Positions 10,490 to 64,000 of a stretch of 64,000 nucleotides of DNA are shown one piece after another; the first letter of the stretch is position 1; every line of letters starts with the position of its first letter. The notes beneath the pieces were generated by a model. It did not search any database, was not told the origin of the DNA, and worked only from the letters and a program-made list of their open reading frames with translations. The position numbers and the translations under genes were made by a program. The stretch lies in NCBI GenBank assembly GCA_958510875.1, contig OY294069.1:178542868-178606867 (forward strand), given 5' to 3'. Source of the DNA: Endomychus coccineus (taxonomy: Eukaryota > Arthropoda > Insecta > Coleoptera > Endomychidae).

Positions 10490-10960
10490 AAGTTCAGATT
10501 GCTTGATTGGGTTCATTGTGCGCCTCTCAACTCAGCAGGTCTAAGCCAGCGTCGAAGGTACAATTTCTGCCTGTACTGATGTCTCCTATGGCCTTAGGCC
10601 ACGTGTATGCGCTGCCGAGTTAGTGTAGCCTAATAGAATCCAGTACTGGACATTCCACTTAGATATAAAATGCATTTTCGTCTGCCTCTTTGCATCTACT
10701 ACAACTTGGGTCATCAATAATGCTCATCAAGTGTATTAAGTGTATCCTGTTACCAGATATATGCTTTTTCTGCTCATAGAAAGTAGGGTGTTTGATGTTC
10801 GCCTGCTCTCTGAGGGCCTGAGGCCCGGTGGTTGATAAGATTCCGATCGATGGATCAAGGCCAGGAGTACCCTGGGAACCCCGTTTGGCTTATTCATGGG
10901 CCATTTCGTTCACTATCACGCCAGTGTGGGCGGGTACTCATAAACCAACTATTGAAAATA
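10490..10960 (-). mobile_element. RNase H-bearing LINE relic (3' coding end)
   Basis: Minus-strand frames read VPAHTGV-NEMAHE-AKRGS, the last RNase H block of an R1/I/Loa-type LINE, then DPSCSRCKEADENAF and ECPVLDSIR, the usual C-terminal Cys/His motif, and LGSAYTWPKAIGDIS. Stops interrupt it. It abuts the Tc1/mariner-type element at 10963, which therefore inserted into this relic. A cousin is at 24430-24740. Confidence 0.65.
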
Positions 10961-10962
10961 TA

Positions 10963-13287
10963 CAGGGTGTCCTCGAACTGCGTGGCCAAAATAAAACCGA
11001 AGATTCTTTGATTCGAAAAAAAGTTGAGGAGCCTTTTTACTTTTGCCTCAAGTGTCTTGTTTTCTCGGTAGAAGGCTTCAAAATTGCAAAAATAATTTTG
11101 TTTTTTCGGTATAACTTGAGAACGTGATGAAGAACTCTTACAATATTTAGCAAGTGAGTTACTGTCAATAATGGCAATTTTTGAGAGTGGAGCACAGAGC
11201 CTTAGAGACCATAGAAATGGCTCAAACTTGAGGATGTAACGGGAAAAGTGTCCAGAACTTTTTTGTGGTCAATCTAATTCACTCGATATTTTTTATGTAG
11301 ATAGCTTATTTAATTTGAAAACTTTTCTTACTCTTAGAAAATTTTGATAAAATCAACGGATTAGCTTGAAAAAATTAATTTTCGAGTCTCTGCAATTTTG
11401 GCTTACTAATTTTACTTGATTAAAATACCTTAGTTGCCTTTGCTTTTCTAATGTCATTTTGGCATTTGAAGAATTTATTTTCAAAACTGTCAGTTTTTAC
11501 TTTGCTTTCCGTAAAAATTTTATAAAATTATGCCTCAAAATTTCACTAACACTGAAATGGTTGATATGTTATTGATTTATGGACTTTGTCGTTGCAATGG
11601 CCGGAGAAGGGAAAGATATCCGCATCGCAGAATTCCAAATCGGCAAACGTTCGCGAAACTGGCCAATTTGAAGCAAATCGCAAAGAAACTGGACGCAAAC
11701 GGACAAGAAGGACGTTAGAGCTCGAAGAAGCGATACTGGAAGCGGTTGAAACTGAACCTGGGATAAGCACACTACGTTTGGGACTTCGTATTGGAGCCTC
11801 AAAATCATTAGTTCCTAATGTACTGAAAGAAGAACTGTTGTATCCCTGTCATATTAAAACAGTTCAAGACTTATTGCCCATGGATCCAGGTCATCGGCTA
11901 GATTTCTGTCGGCTTATTGTCCAAAGACAAAACGCAAACCCCAATTTTTGTAGAAGAATTCTGTTCAAGGACGAAGATACTTTCACGAGATGTGGTCTTT
12001 TTAACCTCCGTAATGAACATTTCTATGCTGATGAAAATCCTCATGAAACGGAAGTTACATATTTTCAGAATCAAACTAAAATCAATGTTTGGGTTGGAAT
12101 TGTGGATAACTTTATTATTGGCCCTACCGTTATACCCGATCGATTGAACGGGGAGAACTACTTGAACTTTTTGGAACAAAGGCTACTTGAACTGTTGGAA
12201 GACTTGCCCTTACACATTCGTCGTGGCCTGGTTTATCCATGATGGTGTACCTCCTCATTTCACATTAGCTGTGAGGCGACATTTGAATGCGGAATATCCA
12301 GATCGCTGGATAGGTAGAGGACACGATGCACCAGTGAACTGGCCGGCCCTCTCCCCTGATTTGACGCCCAGCGACTTCTTTCTATGGGGCGCTTTGAAGT
12401 CGAAAGTTTATGCAGCTCCAGTAAACACACGAGAGGAATTGTTGCAACGAATTAATCATGAAGCGGATTTATTGAAGAATGATCCTGAAGTACTAGCCAG
12501 AGTTCAATCCAATTTCTTGAACCGAATTAATTTGTGTATTCAGGAAAATGGGCAACATTTGGAACAATTGATGCCTTAGCGATTTCCCAAAAAGTTTTGT
12601 TGTTTCTTTTAATTTAGCATTTGTTTTTCCTAAATAATCACATCGTTTCCCCATTTCTATTGTTTTTATTATTCGTGTTTTACCGAGATATTAACCATTT
12701 CAGTGTTAGTGAAATTTTGAGCCATAATTTTATAAAATTTTTACGGAAAGCAAAGTAAAAACTGACAGTTTTGAGAATAAATTCTCCAAATTCCAAAATG
12801 ACATTAGAAAAGCAAAGGCAACTAAGGTATTTTAATCAAGTAAAATTAGTAAGCCAAAATTGCAGAGACTCGAAAATTATTTTTTTTAAGCTAATCCGTT
12901 GATTTTATCAAAATTTTCTAAGAGTAAGAAAAGTTTTCAAATTAGATAAACTATCTGCATAAAAAATATCGAGTGAATTACATTGACCAAAGTTCTGGAC
13001 ACTTTTCCTGTTACATCCTCAAGTTTGAGCCATTTATATGATCTCTAAGGCTCTATGCTCCGCTCTCAAAAACGGCTATTATTGACAGTAACTCACCTGC
13101 CAAATATTGTGGAAGTCCTCAATCAAGTTCTCAAGTTATACCGAAAAAACAAAATTATTTTTGCAACTTGGAAGCCCTCTACCGGCTAAACAACACACTT
13201 GAGGCAAAAGTAAAAAGGCTCATAAATTTTTTTTCGAATCAAAGAATCTTCGGTTTTATTTTAGCCACGCAGTTCGAGGACACCCTG
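10963..13287 (+). mobile_element. Tc1/mariner-superfamily element with 600-bp terminal inverted repeats
   Basis: The ends are CAGGGTGTCC...GGACACCCTG, flanked on both sides by TATA, which fits a TA target duplication. Inverted repeats run from 10963 to about 11567 and from about 12687 to 13287, with only scattered differences. Between them lies one transposase gene with two frame breaks. The repeats extend past the transposase ATG, so the start codon and about 11 codons are inside the left repeat and are mirrored in the right one. The near-identity of the arms suggests a fairly recent or gene-converted copy. Confidence 0.92.
11530..12579 (+). pseudogene. DUF4817 + DDE transposase, two frameshifts
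   Basis: Read across three segments. 11530 to about 11600 encodes the N-terminal helix-turn-helix (DUF4817-like: TNTEMVDMLLIYG). 11600-12242 encodes the linker and first DDE part (ILFKDEDTFTRCG, DENPHET, INVWVGIVDN). 12187-12579 encodes the rest (HDGVPPHFTLAVRRHLN, SPDLTPSDFFLWG) to a TAG at the end. The likely catalytic residues are Asp in FKDE, Asp in HDGV and Asp in TPSD, the last two separated by 43 residues by my count. Two frame changes make this copy non-functional as written. It cuts and pastes DNA at TA sites in its family. Confidence 0.88.
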
Positions 13288-13434
13288 TATAGTACAGAGT
13301 ATGAAATTAGAATATTTTTCATAAAAACTAATCGGGACAATGTATGTTAATCGTAGTAGTTGAAATTTAAAAAAAGCAGCAAAAGGTTCATATAGATTAC
13401 AAAAAGTATATATTGGTATGTATATTACCTATAG

Positions 13435-50279: not shown

Positions 50280-51100
50280 GCAAGGAATCATTAATGACAT
50301 TTATGAGTCGGCAACTTACAATACAATACAGTATTATGTTGGTTGCCTAGCTTAGAGTCGGCTTCTTGCGAAAAAGGTCACAAAAGATTTATTAATGACA
50401 TCCACGAGCCGGCAACTTACAATACAATACGTTATTATGTTAGTTGCTTAGCTGAGAGTCGGGTTCATGTGAAAAGGAGCATACAGAAAATTCTTTAATG
50501 ACATTTATGAGTTGGCAGCTTACAATACAATACGTTATTATGTTGGTTGCGTAGCTTATAGTCGGGTTCTTGCGAAAAAGGACACAAAAGATTCTTTAAT
50601 GACATCCATGAGCCGGCTACTTACAATACGATACGTTATTATGTTGGTTGCTTAGCTGAGAGTCGGGTTCTTGCGAAAGGGAACATACAGAAAATTCTTC
50701 AATGACATTTGTGAGTCGGCAGCATACAATACAATACGTTATTATGTTGATTGCCTAGCTTAGAGTCGGGTTCTTGCAAAAAAGGACACAAAAGATTCTT
50801 TAATGATATCCATGAGCCGGCAACTTACAATACAATACGTTATTATGTTAGTTGCCTAGCTTAGAGTTTGATTCTTGCGAAAAAGGACACAAAAGATTCT
50901 TTAATGACATCCATGAGCCAGCAAATTACAATACAATACGTTATTATGTTAGTTGCCTAGCTTAGAGTCGGGTTGTTGTGAAAAGGAACATACAGAAAAT
51001 TCTTTGATGACATTTATGAGTCGGCAACTTACAATACAACACGTTATTATGTTAGTTGCCTAGCTTAGAGTCCGGTTCTTGCGAAAAAACACAGAAAATT
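50280..51100 (+). repeat. Minisatellite, about 8 monomers, alternating 101 and 103 bp
   Basis: The shared end TTATTATGTT falls at 50340, 50441, 50544, 50645, 50748, 50849, 50950 and 51053. Two monomer types alternate: one with GACACAAAAGATTC and GAGCCGGCAACTT, one with CATACAGAAAATTC and GAGTCGGCAGCTT. It lies between the Penelope and the OGA start, 600 bases upstream of the ATG. Confidence 0.9.
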
Positions 51101-51679
51101 TTAATTCATGAAATCCTTTTTCCAATATAAAACCACTAATTCGAAATTGAGTTGCAGCCAATTTCGTGTTCCAAATTTGTTATAAGCTTACAGCTTATCA
51201 TCATCATTCGAAATTGAAACAATTCAAAGTTTAAACAAACTCACATAGTACCTACCGCATGTCACCTCATATGAATTAATGAAAATTATAATACATCTTA
51301 AATCATAAGTCTTTTGAAATTATTTTTACTTTGATTACCGAGTTCTTCTCAATCGATATTGTTAACGTTAATCAATTTCATCACCATAACTGGGTCAGAA
51401 AATTTATATGACCGGATCTGAATTAATAATCAATAATCGTGTTAAGTAAATTTTCATTATAACAAAGTTTTCTTTACTATTTTACAGACACGACCAATTA
51501 AGCAACTATAGAAGTTTCTACCTTCAACTACATACAACATACAATACAAACAAGAACAATATCAGACAATGCTATATAATTGAAAGTACACATGCTAACC
51601 ATTCTATGCTTGAAATTTAAATCATATCTGTCTGTCAGTGGCAAACTCCAGCTCCCCACTCGCGCCAGTTCATAATAAA

Positions 51680-54600
51680 ATGGCTGAAGTTCCTAACCTA
51701 CTACCAGTTTCTGAAAATTTAAATACTAAAAACGGAAATTTTATTTGTGGAGTAGTCGAAGGTAACTTAACACATTTAATTTTACTGTTTCTATTTCCAT
51801 ATGGAGACTATTTCCCTGTGAAGAAATTCTATAGTTTGAATATCCTAAGAATTTTCTGTACCTAATGTGTACATAATTCATTATATATCACTTTTACTGT
51901 TTCAAGGGTTTTACGGGAGACCATGGACTACAGAACAGCGGAAAGATTTATTCCAAAAGTAAGAGTAACATTTTCTTAACGTATATTTATTATTACTTAT
52001 TTCAAATTGCTTACAGAATGAAGAAATGGGGCATGGATTCTTACGTGTATGCCCCAAAAGATGACTACAAACACAGGGCGTATTGGAGAGAATTGTACAC
52101 AGTCGAAGAAGCAGAACATTTAACAGGTTTAATTCAAGCTGCGAAAGACCAAAATATCACATTCTATTACGCTTTATCGCCCGGTTTGGACATAACCTAC
52201 AGTAGCACGAAAGAAATCACCACTTTAAAACGTAAATTAGAACAAGTGTCTCAATTTGGATGTATAGCATTCGCACTTCTCTTCGACGATATTGAATCTG
52301 AGATGTCGGAAGCGGACAAAGAAATTTTCCAGAGTTTTGCTCAAGCCCAGGTGGCAATCACGAACGATATCTATCAGCATTTAGGTCAACCGAAGTTTCT
52401 GATCTGTCCCACACAGTACTGTTCTACGAGGGCTGTGCCTGATATCACAAATTCTGAATATTTAAATACGTTGGGATTGAAGTTGGCTCAAGAAATAAAT
52501 ATCATGTGGACTGGTGAGTAAATAGATCTTGTTTTGTTCTACGTTCTGTAAATTATTTATATAACTATTAATATAGTCCAGTGCGAAGTCTAATTTTTGT
52601 CTATTCTTATGTATTTTGACACGCTGAACACGATGGTTTAGATTAAATTTGGATTAACCCTGTGCTCGAAAAACTGGCCATTTTTTGGACCTGAAAATGA
52701 TTATTTTTCGATTTTTTGCGTTTTGGGACAAAACTATGGGTTTTATGAAAAAATATTTGCATCAAAAGTTGTTGGAAAAACTAATACGCAACTTTTGGCT
52801 CTAGTCCCAAGTCGATTTGAGGTCGTGGGCCCAAGATAGGGCCCATTTAGTGTGTTTTTTTGGCACATTGAAAAATTGAGTATATGTCGAAGAGTTTTCA
52901 ATTTTTCATATTCTGTTTTGGTTAAAAGATGGTATTTTTATTCTTCTTTTATTTTATTTTTGGTATTTTGACCTTTCTCATTTTTTGGAGTCACAATCGG
53001 CCATTTTGAAAAATCCGTATTTTGCGAATTTCAGACGGAATACTAATGTTATCAATCTAAAACCAGAATTATTCGAAAGATTTCATCATTCTGCATATAA
53101 TATCCAAAATTCAAGTATTTTGCTCTGGAAACATAACCTTAGCGCCATTTTGAAAATTCTGGACCAATGAAATCCGTATTTTGCGAATTTCAGACGGAAT
53201 ACTAATGTTATCAATCTAAAACCAGAATTATTCGAAAGATTTCATCATTCTGCATATAATATCCAAAATTCAAGTATTTTGCTCTGGAAACATAACCTTA
53301 GCGCCATTTTGAAAATTCTGGACCAATGAAATCCGTATTTTGCGAATTTCAGACGGAATACTAATGTTATCAATCTAAAACCAGAATTATTCGAAAGATT
53401 TCATCATTCTGCATATAATATCCAAAATTCAAGTATTTTGCTCTGGAAACATAACCTTAGCGCCATTTTGAAAATTCTGGACCAATGAAATCCGTATTTT
53501 GCGAATTTCAGACGGAATACTAATGTTATCAATCTAAAACCAGAATTATTCGAAAGATTTCATCATTCTGCATATAATATCCAAAATTCAAGTATTTTGC
53601 TCTGGAAACATAACCTTAGCGCCATTTTGAAAATTCTGGACCAATGAAATCCGTATTTTGCGAATTTCAGACGGAATACTAATGTTATCAATCTAAAACC
53701 AGAATTATTCGAAAGATTTCATCATTCTGCATATAATATCCAAAATTCAAGTATTTTGCTCTGGAAACATAACCTTAGCGCCATTTTGAAAATTCTGGAC
53801 CAACGAAAAATCCAAACTTTTTGAGGTTAGAAATTTTTTACGGAACCCAAATTCTAGGTTCTATTAGAGGTTTTAATAGCGAGTATTTTAAGTCTAAGCA
53901 GATTGATTTGGGTCGAATAGAAATGAAGCTATCCTAATAAATGTGTTTGGGCCTATAGACAAAAACCTTGAATCAAATTACAGAGAAATACTTCGGCTAT
54001 TTGAGTTTGGAACAGCGCACGGAGATTCGTTCACAATTCCAAGTTGTAACGAATTTCATCATAAAAATTTAGCGCGGAATTTCATGTAGCTGCAATAAGC
54101 GAGGGTCGGTACAATAGATTCCGCGCGCGAAATAATGGTTTTTTTAATATTTTAAAATGCACCTGATGGAATAATCGTTTTTTATGAATGTGCGAGTGTA
54201 TGTACACGTGTGAACGTGTATATGTGACCGTGGCATGATGTTTTTATAGGGTGTTACATAACAAATTTCAATATTAAACAAAATATTATTATTTATTGAA
54301 AAATTATCTATTTGTCTGATTATTTACAAATAACCTACGTTTTATATTTTTTCCATTATTCATAACATAATATAATTTAATCTAATATAAAGGGCGGAAT
54401 ATATGCACGTCAATTCAGTTAAAATATGCGCATATATATGCATAGTTTTTCTTTGAAATATGCAACAATATGCATTTATTTGTCAAAATATGCAATTATA
54501 TGCCTTGAATGTAAAACATGGAAAAATGGAAATGAAGAAACGCCGACTCTTACAAAAATTATTTATTTTAAGTAAAATTAAAAGAAAAATATAATAGGTA

Positions 54601-57600
54601 AAATTTTTAACCTGAAATAGTATAAAATGCATTTATAACGATATATTTTTCAAAATTTTCCAATAAAAGTGTTTGCCTTCTGTCTGTAAAAATATGTTTG
54701 TACAAAGAAAAAGATCTTTCAACATCTACCGATCTGATCTGGCAATATTTTAATTTGGGTAGTAAGTTATAAGGCCAAGGTATTACTTCGTTGGATGGTT
54801 TAGTATCGTTAATATTTTTGACTTCCATTAAATACTTAAAGCCTTCATTCCTTCCCACAATAACTTCGAGTTTACTTCTTACTTGATTTCCTACATCACC
54901 GGGAACTTTTTTTGCATTTGTCGGAAAAAGTTTCAACAATATTAATTGATTCTCTTAAACTCATATTCCTACTTTCTAACGAAGTTATTATATCTGGTAT
55001 AAAACTAAAATTAACCTTAATAAAAACAAGTTCCTTAGCTAAATTTACATTTTTGAATATGTACTGCCTAACTTTGCACTAGACACTGTGAATTGTCTTC
55101 TAAATCTAAAACTATGTCTTTAATGGCTCCAAAATGGTTGCGTAGAATATCTAGGCCTTAATCCATGTTCCCCATCGAGTAATTACGGGCTCTGGAGGTA
55201 AACTAACTCCTGGCAATTTCTCTCTATAGATCTGCACTGTTAGAGGTGCTTTCAAAAACACTTTCTTTACATTTGAAATTAATTTGTTCACCAAGGGATA
55301 TGCTGTTCTAATAGTTTCTGCAACTCTGTTTATCCCGTGTAAAAGGCAAGTGACATGTACCATATTGGGATAAAATATTTCTAAGTTTTGGCCTACTTTA
55401 ACCATATTCGGCGCTGCGTCAGACAAAAACACTAAAAACTTCTTACTGGAACTGGATTTGGTAAAAAAAAATTTGATTGAGACTGCTGAATAAATCGAGT
55501 TACGGTCACATTATCTGTTTAGAAGATATTAAATATGGCTTCCCTGGCTTATTTTCTTGAAGCCCTCCTATAAGATGTGCGATATATCGACCACATGAGT
55601 CTGTTCGGTGACAATACTTACTACCACCGAACACGACCACCAGCTTCAAGTGAACCTTCTTGTCTTGTTTCTGTTCGGAGAATTAGGCAAGCTGATTACT
55701 TGGAAATTCCTAAACATCCAATAAATGCCGGCAATAAACCATATAATAATGAAATGGGTCCATAAACCATATAATAATAAAACCTTTCCACCTTTTAAAT
55801 AATTTCAATTATCTGCAAGGGTCGCACTTAATCTTTTGATAAAACGAAAAACATAAAAATATGCACACAAATTTTATTTTTGCCGAAATATGCAATTTTT
55901 TATGAAATTTTTAGAAATATGCAAAATATGCGAATATATGCACTTTGCATATATTCCGCCCTTTAATCATAACATACATAATATTGCTTATCGGGAAAAA
56001 TAAAATGCAAGTGTACAGATTCACATTATAGATACGTCTAATACCCATTATTTTATACAATAAACACATTTACTTATTTCTCAATCTTTGTTTACCACGA
56101 TTTTCTGTAATTTCGCTATCAGTCGTACAGTCTGAAGTGCACGACGTATCGATGATGTTATCTTCGTTATCAATGTCATCATATATTGTTAAAGTTGTGA
56201 TATGATCATTATTGATATACGGATCATCGTGATCCGCTTCATCATCTGAGTTTGATAGTATTTGATCGTTGCAAGTGTCAGTGATAACATCATCGGTATC
56301 GTCATTATCTTCATCATCGTGTTCATTTTCATCAATACACTTTTCAAAATCATCATTATCTAATATACTGATTTGTTACTCGGGGCAATTAGAACAATCT
56401 TTAACTTCACAATGCTTACATAATGAGCTACAAGGTAATCCTAATTTTTTGCACGAACATTTACCAGTACAATTTTTTTTACAACTACAAGAGATTATTT
56501 TAATCATCGGGACGTGCATTTTTACTCTTTCTATAGGAGTAATTCCGTTCGAACTATTTCTCCAACCTCATTTCGTTGGATCAATGGTTTCATTGATGCA
56601 TTGTGAAGGTAAATGCTGTTCTAATTGCCCCGAGCCAGAAATCAGTATATTAGATTTTGATAAGTGTATAGATGAAAATGAACACGATGATGAAGACGAT
56701 GACGATACCGATGATCAACGACAATTGCGACGATCAAATGTTATCAACCTCATATGATGAAGCGTATCACGACGATCCGTATATCAATAATAATCATATT
56801 ACATCATTAGCAATATACGCTGGCAGTGATAACAAAAACTTAGGGTATTTGTGAATAATCAGATCATTTTTGAATAAATATGAACTGTAAAAAATTAAAA
56901 AAAAATATCAATGTGAAAAAAAACAAAATTATTTTTTAATCTTATTTTTTTGTTTAAATGTTGAAATTTGTCAAAAAAAAACATCATGTCACGGTCACAT
57001 ATACACGTTCACACGTCTACATACACACACACATTCATAACAAACGATTATGCCTTCAGGTGCATTTTAAAATATTTAAAAAACCATTATTTCGCGCGCG
57101 AAATCTATTGTACCGACCCTCGCTTATTGCCGCTACATGAAATTTCGCGCTAAATGATGAAATTCGTTATAACTTGGGATTGTGAACGAATCTCCGTACG
57201 CTGTTCCAAACTCAAATAGCCGAAGTATTTCTCTTTAATTTAAAATACTCGCTATGAAAACCTCTAATAGAACCTAGAATTTGGGTTTCGTAAAAAATTT
57301 CTAACCTCAAAAAGTTTGGATTTTTCGTTGGTCCAAAATTTTCAAAATGGTGCTGAAGTTATGTCTTCGGAGCAAAATGCTTGAATTTTGGATATTATAT
57401 GCAGAATTATGAAGTCTTTCGAATAATTTTGGTTTTAGATTGATAACATTAGTATTCCGTCTGAAATTCGCAAAATACGGATTTTTCAAAATGGCCGATT
57501 GTGACTCCAAAAAATGAGATAGGTCAAAATACTAAAAATCAAATAAAAGAAGAATGAAAATACTATCTTTTCACCAAAACAGAATAAGAAAAATTGAAAA

Positions 57601-60600
57601 CTCTTTGACATATACTCAATTTGTCAATGTGCCAAGAAACACATTAAATGGGCCCACAACCTCGAATCGACTTGAGACTAAATCCAAAAGTTGCGTATTA
57701 GTTTTTCCAACAACTTTTGTTCGAAACATTTTTTCATAAAACTCAGTTTTGTCTCAAAACGCAAAAAAAATGCCCATTTTCAGGTCCAAAAAATGGCCAT
57801 AGTTTTTCGAGCACAAGGTTAATCCAAATTTAATCTAGACCATCGGTGTTCAGCGTGTCAAAATACATAGGAATAGACCAAAATTAGAACTGGCGGAATT
57901 TCGGACAAAAATTGTCGATTTTCATCCTTAAATGCCAGGACTAATACATTTTTTCTAAAATAATTAATCTCCAATCTTCTATTCTCTATTGGTGTGGCAA
58001 GTCAGTATCGTATTACAGTTTTTTTAGTAATCTTGAAGGAATGTTGTTTGATATGTTCCATAAAAATTATTGGAGGAATAAGGAATAACTTGTGTATTTC
58101 GAAAATCTTGTAGGTCAAAAAGTAATAACTAGAACTTTAACTAGAGAAAATATCCAAGAAATAACGGATGCTTTAAGGAGGCCCCCAGTAATCTGGGATA
58201 ATCTACACGCAAACGATTACGACCAGAAACGTGTATTTTTGGGGCCCTACTCTGGCAGATCTCCCGATTTAATACCAAAACTTCGAGGAGTTCTAACCAA
58301 TCCCAACTGCGAATACGGAGCTAACTTCATCGCGATCCATACTCTAGCCCAATGGTCCAGGTGTAACTTGGACGGTCAACGAGATCCTATGCTGAGTGAG
58401 TATCCTATTTTTTTCATATTCCATCGGAAATTACGTTATCGGGTTTCCACAGGAACCTCTTCTGGTTCCACCCTATCCGATTCAATTGTTTTCACTTTCA
58501 GACGATACAGTTTCCGCCGACATCAAATTAGAAACGGAAACGGAGGACGGGCAAATGGGTGAAGACGTGCCTATCACGTTATCGCCGAATATGTATCATC
58601 CCAAACAGGCACTGAAAAACGCAATAAAAGAGTGGTTGGCCGAATTTTCGAAGTACAAGGCAGCTTGGGGACCAATCGCAAAACCTCAACCGACAGTAGC
58701 AGGTAATGTACTATTTTCCGATATTCGGTAGATTTTATAATTTCAGCATTTGATTCATCCAAAAGTTTTGAATTCTTGAAAGTTGAGTTATTTTTTTAAT
58801 GTTTGCGGAATGTATGAATTCAATTCAACTAGAAAATTTGAGAAAATAACAGGTTTGATGAAATTCTTCTATCCAATAATGTATCACTGAGAATTTTATT
58901 CTTTAATGCGATTTGTTTTCATTTTCCAACATGATTTAATTTGACAGGTTTATCCATCACTGGGTTTGGGGTTTTTACTTGATACTAATTATCAGTTTTG
59001 GTCGAAAAATGCGGAAAACTTGCTTTAGCTTACATTTAACTTGAAACGCTGTCAAAATCGGAACCAGAGGGTGAAAACTGGATCGGAGTCGAATCGAGTC
59101 AATTTTTCAGGTGTTAGAGTTGGTTGACTATTTTTTGAGGCGGACAACAGTACGTGCTCAATTGTTTTTGCCACCTGGACAACAGAGTTATCTAGTATTC
59201 TGTCGCTGACATTTTATATTCCTCCAAAGAGGACCATGCTAGCTTTGTTTTGACAGCTTTTACATTTAAAATCGTAAACTGCGATTTTATGCGGATGTTG
59301 GGAACCGATTTTTATAAGATTACGGATAGGGTGACCAATACAGCTCCAAACTCCAGTCAATTAGTTGTACTTGGGCAAACTTGTCATCTTTAGCCTTAGT
59401 AAAACTAGTTCTAGTGGATCCTAAAGTTGGCAATCGATCAAAGATGACCTGAACCGAGGTAAGTTCGGGTTAATTGTTGAAAAAGTGAGAATGAAGAAGG
59501 ATCCTTGTGGAACTCCCCATACCTTCACAAGTTGAAGTTCAACAAAAAGGTAACTCCAAGACTCAGATTGGGGTTTAGCCTGTTTTTTCGAAAAGTGAAG
59601 ACCAAGAAGGATCCGTGCGGGACACCTCGCACCGTCACAAATTCACGTTAGCCTAAACCATCAAGACTTGCCACGTTTTTTTCTTGTTCCCTCGTTGATC
59701 CACGCAGATGTCGATGTTGCTGTTGAACTTTAACCAATTGAATTGCTGCAAAATTTGTAGTCTTTACATTCACAAGTTCAAGTTCGACAAAGAGAACCTT
59801 CAAGACTAAGGTTGCGGGTTATCCTGTTTTTTTCGAAAGGTGAAGACAAGGAAGGATCCGTGTGGAACACCTCGCACCGTCGCAAGCTCACGTTTAGCAA
59901 CGATCTGAACCATCAAAACTCACCACGTGAGTTTCACTGTTCCTTCGTTGATCCATGCAGATGACGATGTTGCTGTTGGACTTTAACCAATTGAATTGCT
60001 GCAAAATCTGTAGCCTACATTCACGAGTTCAAGTTCGACAAAGGGAAAGTCCAATACTAAGGTTGCGGGCTATCCTGTTTTTTTCGAAAGGTGAAGACAA
60101 GGAAGTATCCGTACGGGACACTTCGCACCTTCACAAGTTCACGTTGGACAACGGTCTGAACCATCAAGACTCACCACGTGATTTTCACTGTTCTTTCGTT
60201 GATCCGTGCAGATGTCGATGTTGCTGTTGGACTTTAACCAATTGAATTGCTGCAAAATTTGTATTCTTTGGATTCACAAGTTCAAATTCGACGACTTCCA
60301 AGACTTAGGTTGGGGGTTTAGCCTGTTGTTTCGAAAGGTGAAGACAAGGAAGGATCCGTGCGGAACACTTCCCACCTTCACAAGTTCTCGTTATACAATG
60401 GTCTGAACCATTAAGACTCACCACGTGAGTTTCACTGTTCCTTCGTTGGATAGGAATAAATAAAAAACGACGCAATTTTCCACAAATTTTCCAGAATTTT
60501 CTTTCTTTTAGTGAAAATTGTACCGAGACACATCATGGCAGCTTATTATTTCAATACCACTCAAGTCCGAGAAAGAACATTGTTGCTAAGATTTAGTAAA

Positions 60601-63600
60601 ATTTTCCGGGTTTTCCAGCAAACGAACCGGATTTCCCATTTTCCGGATTCAGCGGATAAAAAAACCACCTGATACCTGATATACATTTGTTAATTGAAAA
60701 TGGTTTTTCATTGTTTATTAATAATAGTGATCACGAGCCCTCTTTTTTCTGACTAACGACGTGTAAGCCATTTTGAAAACGATGCAAAAAGAATTGTGCA
60801 TTTTCGTGCGGTCTGTAAAATTTTAGTAATGACCCCTATTTTTCACAATTTTGACTGGACTGTAAGGGCATCTCCCAAGGATTCCTATCCCATTTTTTTA
60901 TCACAGCTCGATACTCAATTTTCGTGACTTTAAACGATTGACAATTGAAAGAAAACCAATTGTCGTAAAATCAATGTTTGTTTTTGCCAAAGCTACTAAG
61001 ACTTCAACTTGTGACCTACTGCGATACCTGTATGCCGGTACTTTTTGGCGTTGTCCTTGTATATCACTTACTGGTTTCTTGCAGTTATACCGCTTCCAAT
61101 AATACCTTCAATAAACACCTGCATGACTCTCACACCAACCACGACAACCAATTCAACCACACAGGCAGTTGTTAACACGACGCAGTTGCAAGCTTTGGCG
61201 GAAGTTTGCAGCTCGGTAAGTGTACCCACAAGCGACGCAAACCACGGAAGAAGTAAACGCGCCTAATTTTTTCTAGGTGTCCGTCACCGATTCGCTGGTC
61301 AGTCCGGTGCCTGGTCCCGTCATGAATTCCCTCATGTCCGAAAGCAAAGTGATCTGCAACGAATCGATACCCAATCCGATAACCACCGTCACCATTCCGA
61401 TACCGATACGCGCCGACGAAGAAACCAAAAGTATCACGGTGTTGAGCGGCGCGATCATCAAACAGCCTCAGCACCACACCAACGGACGCGATTCCGTGGC
61501 GCTTTCGAGCGTCGATAAAGCGACGAACGCCGTCCCCGCTAAGAACTCGACGAGCGCCAACGCCAAAGACGAAGTATCGATGAACACCGACGCCGGCACC
61601 GACGTGAGCAACGAATCGAGTCTCAGTCCATCGGAACCGATGGATTGCAATAGCACGCCGAACATATCGCCCGCGCATCTCGTCAAGTCCGCCGGCGAAT
61701 CCAACGAAGACGTGGCCATGAGCGAAACGTCGGTAAGTGGACATTTAGCTTTTTCGCGCTGATTTTTTTTTTAACTGTGAACTTAGATAAACTATTTGAT
61801 GAAATGGAAGCGCCCTCGAATAGATCCTTGCGGAACACCGGAAAGCAGATGCGGTCTTAGCTCGTCTAAATGAATTGTTTTATATCATGTTTACGCTGCT
61901 GTTAAACTGTAAACGTATGTAAACTACGGGATGAAATGGAAATGCTCTCAACAAGGATCCTTGGGGAACTCCAGAAGATGCAAAGGTGTATTTTCTGTTG
62001 TCTAAATGAAATCTTGCTTTTCAGTCGTTCCATTTGCAGGAGATATGGAGTTTGTACAGCGAAAGTTTTTCGTAATTATAGTGTTCTCTTAAACATTTAC
62101 AATAATTACTTCCTCATAAAAGAAACGTGAAGTCTCGAAAAGTTACTTTGGAGTCTCCGATGAACAGTTTCATGGGGCGGATTTTCATTTTTTATCCAAA
62201 ACATTTTGTGTCTGGCGTAATATAAGAAAATATCTGCTGTATCGACGCTTTAAGAAACAAAAAAAATCTCACGCGTCTGTTCTTTGATGTTGTCCTGAAT
62301 ATTCCGTTGCTTCATTTCTAACGAAACGATGGATACTCTTGCTTTCATCAACTGTTTCCAGGGCCTCTTTCACAAACGGCGGAAGGCTTAGAAAAGATCC
62401 CTGCGGAATCGCAGAGGGAAGAGAAGAACTCTTATCACATTTCACTTGAAATTGTGATAATGTTTGGGATAATTCATCCAATCTTCTTTTTTTCCCTCTG
62501 GGATTCCGCAGGGACCTTTTCATACCCGGGACCTTTGATATTTCAGATGTTTTTCAGCTCGAACTGAATGATCGGAACTCTTGCTTTCTTCAACTGTTTC
62601 CAGGGCCTCTTTCACAAACGGCGGAAGGCTTGGAAAAGATCCCTGCGGAATCGCAGAGGGAAGAGAAGAACTCTTGATTGAATGAATTATCCCAAACATT
62701 ATCACATTTCACTTGAAATTGTGATAATGTTTGGGATAATTCATCCAATCAAGAGTTCTTTTTTTCCCTCTGGGATTCCGCAGGGACCTTTTCATACCAG
62801 GGACCTGCAGATGTTAAGTTCAATTGAGTCAGCAGCAAAGTTCAGGTGATAGGTCTTCATTGTAAGCTCAGAGTAAATCGTCTCTTGTATGATGTCATCT
62901 CTTTTATTAGAAATCTGGAAAAACGGCAAAACAGGGGTTGGGCCAAAAGGAAGTTTTGGCATTGGTAAACTCCGAATTGGTCGTTAATACCAAATAACTA
63001 TTCTGGATCCATCGATGTACTGACAGATTCCTCTTCTAACAGGGTGAATTTTCCAGTTTTCACTCTTGTTGCCAAGATGGGTTTTGAAGTTCTTTGTGTA
63101 CCTGAAATATGTACATTTTAGCTGTGTTTATTCAAGCAGCGCCAGAAGTTGAGTTCCAAGATGATGGTCATCTCATTCGATTCCAAAGAACTGTGAATTA
63201 TCGAAATTTCGGATGCTAAAACTATTGTAGACGTCATCGAATAATATTCATGTAATTAATTCCTTTATAACGTACAACTCTAGACCGAAACAGTTTCCTT
63301 GAGGAACTCCTAATAACTGTTTTAATTCGTTACTTATGACGTTTTCTGCACCTGTAACTGTGTTAGGCGATATTCCGAAATCGCTCTGATATAAACTTAA
63401 ATATTTCAGACGTCCAGCGCGAGTATGCAAGTGGAGCCCAATGAAAGTCATATGATTATCGAAAATTACGAAAAGTAAGTGATAGGGCTTTCAGTTTTTG
63501 CTCAGTTTGCCTGACGAGAACGTTGTTTTATTCTAGGAAAGAGTGCGAATTGACGGTGGAAGATTTGCAACTCTTGTGCGACTTGTTCTATCTGCCGTTC

Positions 63601-63990
63601 GAACACGGCAACCAAGGATTACAATTATTGCAGGAATTCAATTGGTTAAAGTCCAACGCCAACATAGTCGTCTGCGCAGATCAACTAAAAAACAGAGAAA
63701 CTCCCGAGGTGAGTCTTGTCGGAGTCCAAGGGGTTTCCACATGGATCCTTCCTTGTCCTCGGCTAGTTATTTCGGTGCTATTCACACGTTTGACGTGTTT
63801 TGATTTTTCGTTTAGATGGAAGAGTGGTTTTCTCGGGCGGAAAAGATGGGCGAACTCGTGCAAGGCATCAATACGTTGTTCCAACATTTGAGTTCGTGCC
63901 AAAATAGAGAGTTGTTGTACGATCTGTATCCGTACGTTTGGGATATCCGAAGTATCATATCTTTGTTGAATTCGTATGTTAAATGGTTGG
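51680..63990 (+). CDS. OGA: O-GlcNAcase (protein O-GlcNAc hydrolase, GH84), 3' end beyond window
   Basis: Ten exons, 51680-51761, 51907-51958, 52017-52513, 58114-58395, 58502-58702, 61085-61215, 61277-61732, 63410-63474, 63537-63708 and 63816-63990, splice in frame to about 704 residues before the window ends. The enzyme removes O-linked GlcNAc from serine and threonine of nuclear and cytosolic proteins. The GH84 domain begins near residue 22 ([27 protein letters not shown]). The catalytic Asp pair in LLFDDI is residues 135-136, and [13 protein letters not shown] is also conserved. Exons 6-7 encode a low-complexity Ser/Thr linker; exons 9-10 encode the helical stalk ([34 protein letters not shown]). 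The C-terminal acetyltransferase-like domain is expected to the right. ATG 51680 is chosen because the frame upstream has no ATG before a stop at 51611. Introns 3, 5 and 7 carry unusual inverted repeats. Confidence 0.95.
53012..53806 (+). repeat. Five perfect tandem copies of a 159-bp unit
   Basis: The unit begins AATCCGTATTTTGCGAATTT at 53012, 53171, 53330, 53489 and 53648. Copies look identical by eye. The inverted arm (57307-57510) has one copy. The unit is flanked by GAAAAATCC on both sides in the single-copy arm, and junctions read AATGAAATCC, so amplification probably began at this short homology. Confidence 0.95.
54389..55964 (-). mobile_element. hAT element inserted in the left arm of the foldback
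   Basis: The ends AAAGGGCGGAATATATGCA and its inverse form the termini; subterminal regions are rich in ATATGCA. The right arm of the foldback lacks this segment. The target duplication is not clean (TAATATA left, TAATCATA right). It contains hAT transposase pieces on the minus strand. Confidence 0.75.
54607..55440 (-). pseudogene. hAT transposase fragments
   Basis: 55151-55440 encodes [40 protein letters not shown] and [11 protein letters not shown], the RNase H-like part around the conserved SDAAPNM and the later RW motif. 54607-54939 encodes the dimerisation end: [38 protein letters not shown]. About 200 bases between them have lost the frame, and the 5' domain is missing. Confidence 0.8.
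56060..56860. other. Palindromic core: two inverted copies of a Cys-rich/acidic C-terminus
   Basis: Read on the minus strand, 56480-56060 gives [18 protein letters not shown], then [22 protein letters not shown] and a final RGKQRLRNK before a stop. Read on the plus strand, 56610-56860 gives [20 protein letters not shown] and [15 protein letters not shown]. So the same protein tail, a CXC-type cysteine cluster followed by an acidic tail, occurs twice in opposite directions. It looks like the end of a transposon-encoded protein; the host family is not identified. Confidence 0.6.
58750..59435. other. OGA intron 5, left part
   Basis: AT-rich intronic sequence. I see no domain or repeat before the antisense array begins at about 59440. 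Confidence 0.4.
59440..60450 (-). repeat. 250-bp tandem array of antisense copies of OGA exon 9, in OGA intron 5
   Basis: The monomer recurs with a period of about 250 (CGATGTTGCTGTTG at about 59716, 59968 and 60219). Its reverse complement reads [20 protein letters not shown], matching OGA exon 9 [20 protein letters not shown]. It continues across the exon 9 splice donor (GGTGAGTCTTG) into intron 9 (GGATCCTTCCTTGTC). Over the best 84 bases about 71 match. Three full and two partial units are present. Confidence 0.85.
61800..62060 (+). repeat. Two diverged direct repeats, 130 bp period, OGA intron 7
   Basis: GATGAAATGGAA at 61800 and 61930, followed in both by GATCCTTG-GGAAC-CC and TCTAAATGAA. 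On the minus strand both read GVPQGS. No further coding sense. Confidence 0.6.
62380..62800. repeat. Duplicated palindromic hairpin repeat, OGA intron 7
   Basis: Two copies (62380-62525 and 62615-62800). The second has a near-perfect hairpin from AAGAACTCTTGATT to AATCAAGAGTTCTT (62665-62763), nested inside TCCCTGCGGAATC/GATTCCGCAGGGA. The first lost part of the left arm. On the minus strand both copies read [19 protein letters not shown]. Confidence 0.75.
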
Positions 63991-64000
63991 GTAAGTAAAT

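Follow-up and report, generated by a model that had tools for sequence, protein, structure and literature searches.

In human TERT, 38-bp repeats of intron 6 pair with the downstream pre-mRNA and thereby lead to skipping, for which compensatory mutations provided the proof (PMC3948165). The long-range complementary regions described for human pre-mRNAs are conserved, mostly of the intron-intron type and depleted around exons (PMC8052449). The window analysed here, a stretch of 64,000 nucleotides from the beetle Endomychus coccineus, holds a tandem array in an intron of OGA, the units of which are, like the TERT repeats, predicted to pair with the downstream pre-mRNA of their own gene.

The OGA gene and its intronic array

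The host gene is the beetle's OGA (protein O-GlcNAcase), with Cryptolaemus montrouzieri (79%), Henosepilachna (78%) and Zophobas (78%) at the top among the best 120 of 3,339 homologues found. Exons 1-10 lie within the window at about 51680-63991, and in the home genome the gene extends as far as about 70.2 kb. A search of that genome returned 11 OGA protein matches, all in C3:178594767-178613075 (C3 being the host contig), and no second OGA copy. The relevant parts of the gene are:

58703-61084, plus strand: OGA intron 5, host of the array
61085-61215, plus strand: OGA exon 6 (131 nt), part of the loop that separates the arms
61277-61732, plus strand: OGA exon 7 (456 nt), part of the same loop
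63410-63474, plus strand: OGA exon 8 (65 nt), part of the same loop
63537-63708, plus strand: OGA exon 9, 172 nt, the source, with the copied part at about 63612-63708
63709-63815, plus strand: OGA intron 9, 107 nt, the donor and parts up to about 63760 being present in array units

When 63400-63900 was used as BLAST query against the window, exon 9 found minus-strand matches in the array, and each full unit corresponds on that strand to the last part of exon 9 plus the splice donor and the first part of intron 9:

59520-60448, minus strand: tandem array in OGA intron 5 (TRF: period 251, 3.7 copies, 84% matches)
59520-59764, minus strand: unit U1, with its exon 9 copy in 59662-59765 (BLAST, 76.2% over 105 nt)
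59765-60015, minus strand: unit U2, with its exon 9 copy in 59914-60012 (BLAST, 81.8% over 99 nt)
60016-60264, minus strand: unit U3, with its exon 9 copy in 60165-60271 (BLAST, 83.2% over 107 nt, E 2.8e-27)
60265-60448, minus strand: unit U4, partial, with a 36-nt exon 9/donor piece at 60413-60448, 83.3% (BLAST)
59467-59531, minus strand: degenerate partial unit at the array edge, lacking the exon 9 part (nhmmer, E 7.6e-07)

An initial annotation, made from the sequence alone, had described an array of about 250-bp units antisense to the terminal part of exon 9 together with the donor and the beginning of intron 9, and TRF and BLAST bear this out. Its coordinates and its exon and intron numbering are right as well, and the arms, which it had placed 3 kb from each other, are about 3.3-3.8 kb apart. 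The antisense similarity is real, the figure of about 85% identity being too high for each of the three full units; the exon 9 segment given as 63640-63708 in fact starts at about 63612, and the three antisense copies are joined by the fourth, partial one. The concern that the matches might be no better than chance does not hold, the match between array and exon 9 lying far above chance.

Beyond the donor, the match runs for about 10 nt; after a gap, the two sides differing in length by as much as about 30 nt, it resumes to about 63760, with the intron 9 segment 63735-63760 matching 59867-59842 (92.3% of 26 nt) and 60365-60340 (88.5% of 26 nt). Within the 10 nt past the end of exon 9, U3 shows no difference, U2 one and U1 two. 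Pairwise, the units diverge by 7-23% over the larger parts compared, the leftmost being the most decayed. The array region had no match in Rfam, which gave a single weak tRNA match elsewhere in the window. At the left array edge (59455-59470), the plus strand carries a strong-looking splice donor consensus.

Origin of the copy

The array query of 1011 bases gave at least two matches in the 906-Mb home genome, namely the array itself and exon 9. On these grounds, and with the count being a lower bound, a dispersed repeat or transposable element family was rejected; the hundreds of copies against which the initial annotation had cautioned did not appear in this search. A second OGA copy or pseudogene as source was likewise rejected, every OGA protein match falling within the single locus. 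No other exon was found copied into introns when ten exon segments were BLASTed against the window: significant off-locus matches were obtained for exon 9 only, the remaining segments giving merely 17-25-nt matches (E 0.027-0.1).

Because exon 9 and the array have in common a Cys that occurs at that position in none of the 119 listed homologues and an Asp that occurs in one of the 119, and because the array deviates from the homologues in having Gln where those listed have Glu (109 of 111 matched) or Asp (2 of 111) and Ser where they have Ala (107 of 108 matched), exon 9 is the source and the array a derived copy that arose on this lineage. At one further site, exon 9 encodes Leu (1/119 listed homologues) and the array Arg (14/119, including Cryptolaemus and Harmonia), which suggests, for this single site, that the array retains the older state. 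Since the copy includes the donor and intron sequence, it was taken from DNA and not from spliced RNA. Of the 98 common sites, 12 (4/4/4 over the codon positions) show one and the same difference from exon 9 in all three units, and 14 differ from exon 9 in some units only. The founder therefore diverged before amplification, and the units diverged later. With an inverted copy of a same-locus source present in tandem, the array belongs to the intragenic inverted duplications with tandem amplification.

Other repeats in the window

When the window was compared with itself, 32 inverted pairs passed E <= 1e-6, a count in which several are self-palindromes or repeat a single pair; find_repeats gave 37 pairs in 51600-64000. 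The largest are those of intron 3, which are 93-95% complementary:

52589-54283 and 56948-57888: intron 3, a large inverted repeat whose longest arms measure 317 nt (93%)

Because inverted repeats are common in the region, an inverted repeat in OGA is ordinary; one arm being a coding exon with its donor is not. An arm of the intron 3 repeat contains a 159-bp unit five times at 99% (53011-53808). Direct and inverted duplicates are also seen in intron 7 at 62311-62806, including a near-perfect palindrome at 62633-62793 (91-92%), and just upstream of OGA lies a tandem array whose unit measures about 101 bp (50291-51098). Far from the gene, open frames at 11586-12579 resemble a mariner/Tc-type transposase by eye and are flanked on either side by 609-nt inverted repeats (10959-11567 and 12688-13291, 93%).

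A short motif, which on the minus strand resembles the GVPQGS core of reverse transcriptases, recurs in unrelated segments of OGA introns 5 and 7 (59503-63310), with a degenerate copy in intron 9 (63731-63750). With at most one mismatch, this GVPQGS-like motif has 18 matches in the window versus 0.8 expected, 13 of them in 59.5-63.3 kb and some of the 18 being local duplicates or both-strand overlaps; 200 kb of same-chromosome background gave five. A 20-base pattern derived from the motif copies has seven exact matches in the genome, three in OGA introns and four in apparent LINE remnants. The motif also occurs in a diverged tandem pair in intron 7 (61771-62029), for which the genome search matched this place only; with a profile built from this pair, nine of 18 other matches of at least 3.7 bits in 284 kb fall in 59.4-63.8 kb. 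Ten short RT-like peptides gave no match in Pfam (0/10), the likely LINE remnants that served as comparison being among the ten.

Predicted pairing with exon 9

Duplex energies with the exon 9 region amount to -149.5, -180.3 and -175.5 kcal/mol for U1, U2 and U3, respectively, with shuffle means of -66.5, -74.1 and -75.1 kcal/mol and none of 100 shuffles as low as the real sequence in each case. The partial U4 (-93.3) lies just under its lowest shuffle (-92.2), and pairing of the degenerate unit at 59440-59540 with exon 9 is within the shuffles (-52.7 versus a mean of -45.8 and a minimum of -61.0).

When 59400-63900 was folded, the structure of lowest energy had the array paired with 108 of the 135 nt in 63600-63734 and with eight of nine donor nucleotides, U3 being the copy that pairs with exon 9. 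Removal of introns 6-8 before folding left the same pairing between array and exon 9, while shuffled arrays gave no paired nucleotides in five of five cases under both settings and folds weaker by about 100-121 kcal/mol. Such folds predict the equilibrium state of naked RNA, 3.5-4.5 kb in length, and have no bearing on cells. The earlier idea that pairing could mask exon 9 or its donor is thus upheld as a physical potential, by energies and fold alike, and drew no support as to use or selection from the tests run.

Tests for selection

Summed over the three units, the differences between array and exon fall on codon positions 1/2/3 as 20/21/16, and this even spread gives no sign of coding constraint on the array. 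Nor was there an excess of wobble-preserving changes: 13 of 27 transitions keep G-U, where about half are expected without selection, in a count from one species with non-independent units and hence a weak test. For a selected long-range RNA structure, changes that keep pairing would have to exceed chance, and in this weak, one-species test they did not. Compared in pairs, U1-U3 diverge by 7-14% in the exon-like part and by 13-18% in the rest, a direction as under selection that is not significant; the better keeping of the exon-like part (variable columns 15/98 versus 33/142 in the rest) gave a Fisher p of 0.14. We read this as no detectable constraint on the array, at low power and in one genome.

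Interpretation

The reading we favour, with a probability of roughly 0.78, is that the array is a neutral leftover of a local inverted duplication and its pairing incidental. The initial annotation had itself offered neutral debris of this kind as an alternative, and it fits best with the even codon positions, wobble at chance and p = 0.14. On the sequence evidence, about 160 bp, comprising the end of exon 9, the donor and the start of intron 9, were copied in inverted orientation into intron 5 in the beetle's own lineage; the mechanism may have been, for example, strand-switching in replication or repair. The copy would then have diverged and joined extra sequence to give the 251-bp unit, followed by tandem amplification, and the units would have decayed since without detectable constraint. 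By thermodynamic prediction, array and exon 9 can still form a long, imperfect duplex in the pre-mRNA; normal OGA production probably continues because intron 5 is removed, or the duplex is tolerated, sufficiently often. In favour of neutral debris, OGA intron 3 holds other intragenic inverted repeats that are longer and better matched. Against it stand the very strong predicted pairing, the lower (not significantly so) unit divergence in the exon-like part and the 10/10 nt just past the exon 9 end that are matched by U3, the best-kept unit. If neutral, the array measures how much perfect-looking antisense complementarity, covered splice donor included, is tolerable in an essential gene, and it warns against equating pairing energy with function.

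Control of splicing is an unlikely alternative, in which pairing of the array with exon 9 and the donor either hides the donor from spliceosomal U1 or brings exon 5 close to exon 9 or 10. A fraction of transcripts would accordingly skip exon 9, exons 6-8 or exons 6-9, or retain intron 9, and OGA output would be lower. The duplex energies of U1-U3 far below shuffles and the predicted fold covering exon 9 and donor speak for it, and human TERT intron 6 repeats work likewise (PMC3948165). Skipping of exons 6-8, 9 or 6-9, or retention of intron 9, each causes a frameshift to a stop, so that the array, if it acted at all, would reduce the amount of functional message. The array would in that event act as a cis-acting antisense brake, sequestering through an exon 9-derived intronic sequence both exon 9 and its donor and diverting transcripts to frameshifted products, an outcome we would not bet on. 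Equally improbable is the corollary that it represents a second, independently evolved TERT-like pairing of repeat RNA, built by inverted exon duplication. Splicing control is countered by the absence of a selection signal for pairing and by the requirement of TERT for at least nine repeats (PMC3948165), versus 3.7 here; moreover, transcription has to proceed about 2.6 kb from the start of exon 6 to reach exon 9, by which time intron 5 may already be gone. If functional, one inverted duplication would have created the gene's own splicing repressor in a single step, and repeat copy number would be linked to OGA dosage.

Still less probable is a role as a source of dsRNA, with the array/exon 9 duplex giving rise to Dicer-2 endo-siRNAs against OGA mRNA or to ADAR editing. 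The long antisense match within one transcript is compatible with such a role, as is the proposal, made for Drosophila hairpin RNAs, that these derive from their targets (PMC10317233). It is disfavoured by the unpaired mismatches (U1 18/104, U2 15/99 and U3 14/107 nt), by a loop of more than 3 kb and by a duplex that would presumably be confined to nuclear pre-mRNA prior to splicing of intron 5.

That the array is an assembly artefact or a dispersed repeat and not a feature of the gene is very remote, no evidence for either having been found in these analyses, with units 7-23% apart pairwise (which a collapse or duplication error would not produce), a home genome search that gave this locus only (a lower bound) and a host contig of 183 Mb.

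Comparison with known systems

The initial annotation had pointed to detained introns of mammalian OGT and OGA that respond to O-GlcNAc; the likeness is one of pathway name alone, and the tie has no support here beyond the shared gene name. A published array of the OGA kind was not found in the open-access literature searched.

Drosophila hpRNAs resemble the array in that antisense sequence was duplicated from a protein-coding target, and differ from it in that OGA has no separate hairpin locus, the copy lying inside an intron of the target, 3.3-3.8 kb off (PMC10317233). With the human long-range complementary regions, it shares distant complementarity within one pre-mRNA and exons that are looped out; in contrast to the mostly intron-intron pairs there, one of the OGA arms is coding (PMC8052449). 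Both the hpRNA pathway and the human long-range pairings are looser parallels than TERT.

As in TERT, an intronic tandem repeat is able to pair with the downstream pre-mRNA of its own gene, reaching exon 9, and is lineage-restricted, with non-functional skip products predicted (PMC3948165). In contrast to the at least nine 38-bp repeats that TERT needs, OGA has 3.7 units of 251 bp, which are direct antisense copies of an exon with its donor and for which pairing is a prediction only (PMC3948165). On this comparison, the TERT intron 6 repeat is the nearest known mechanism to the OGA array.
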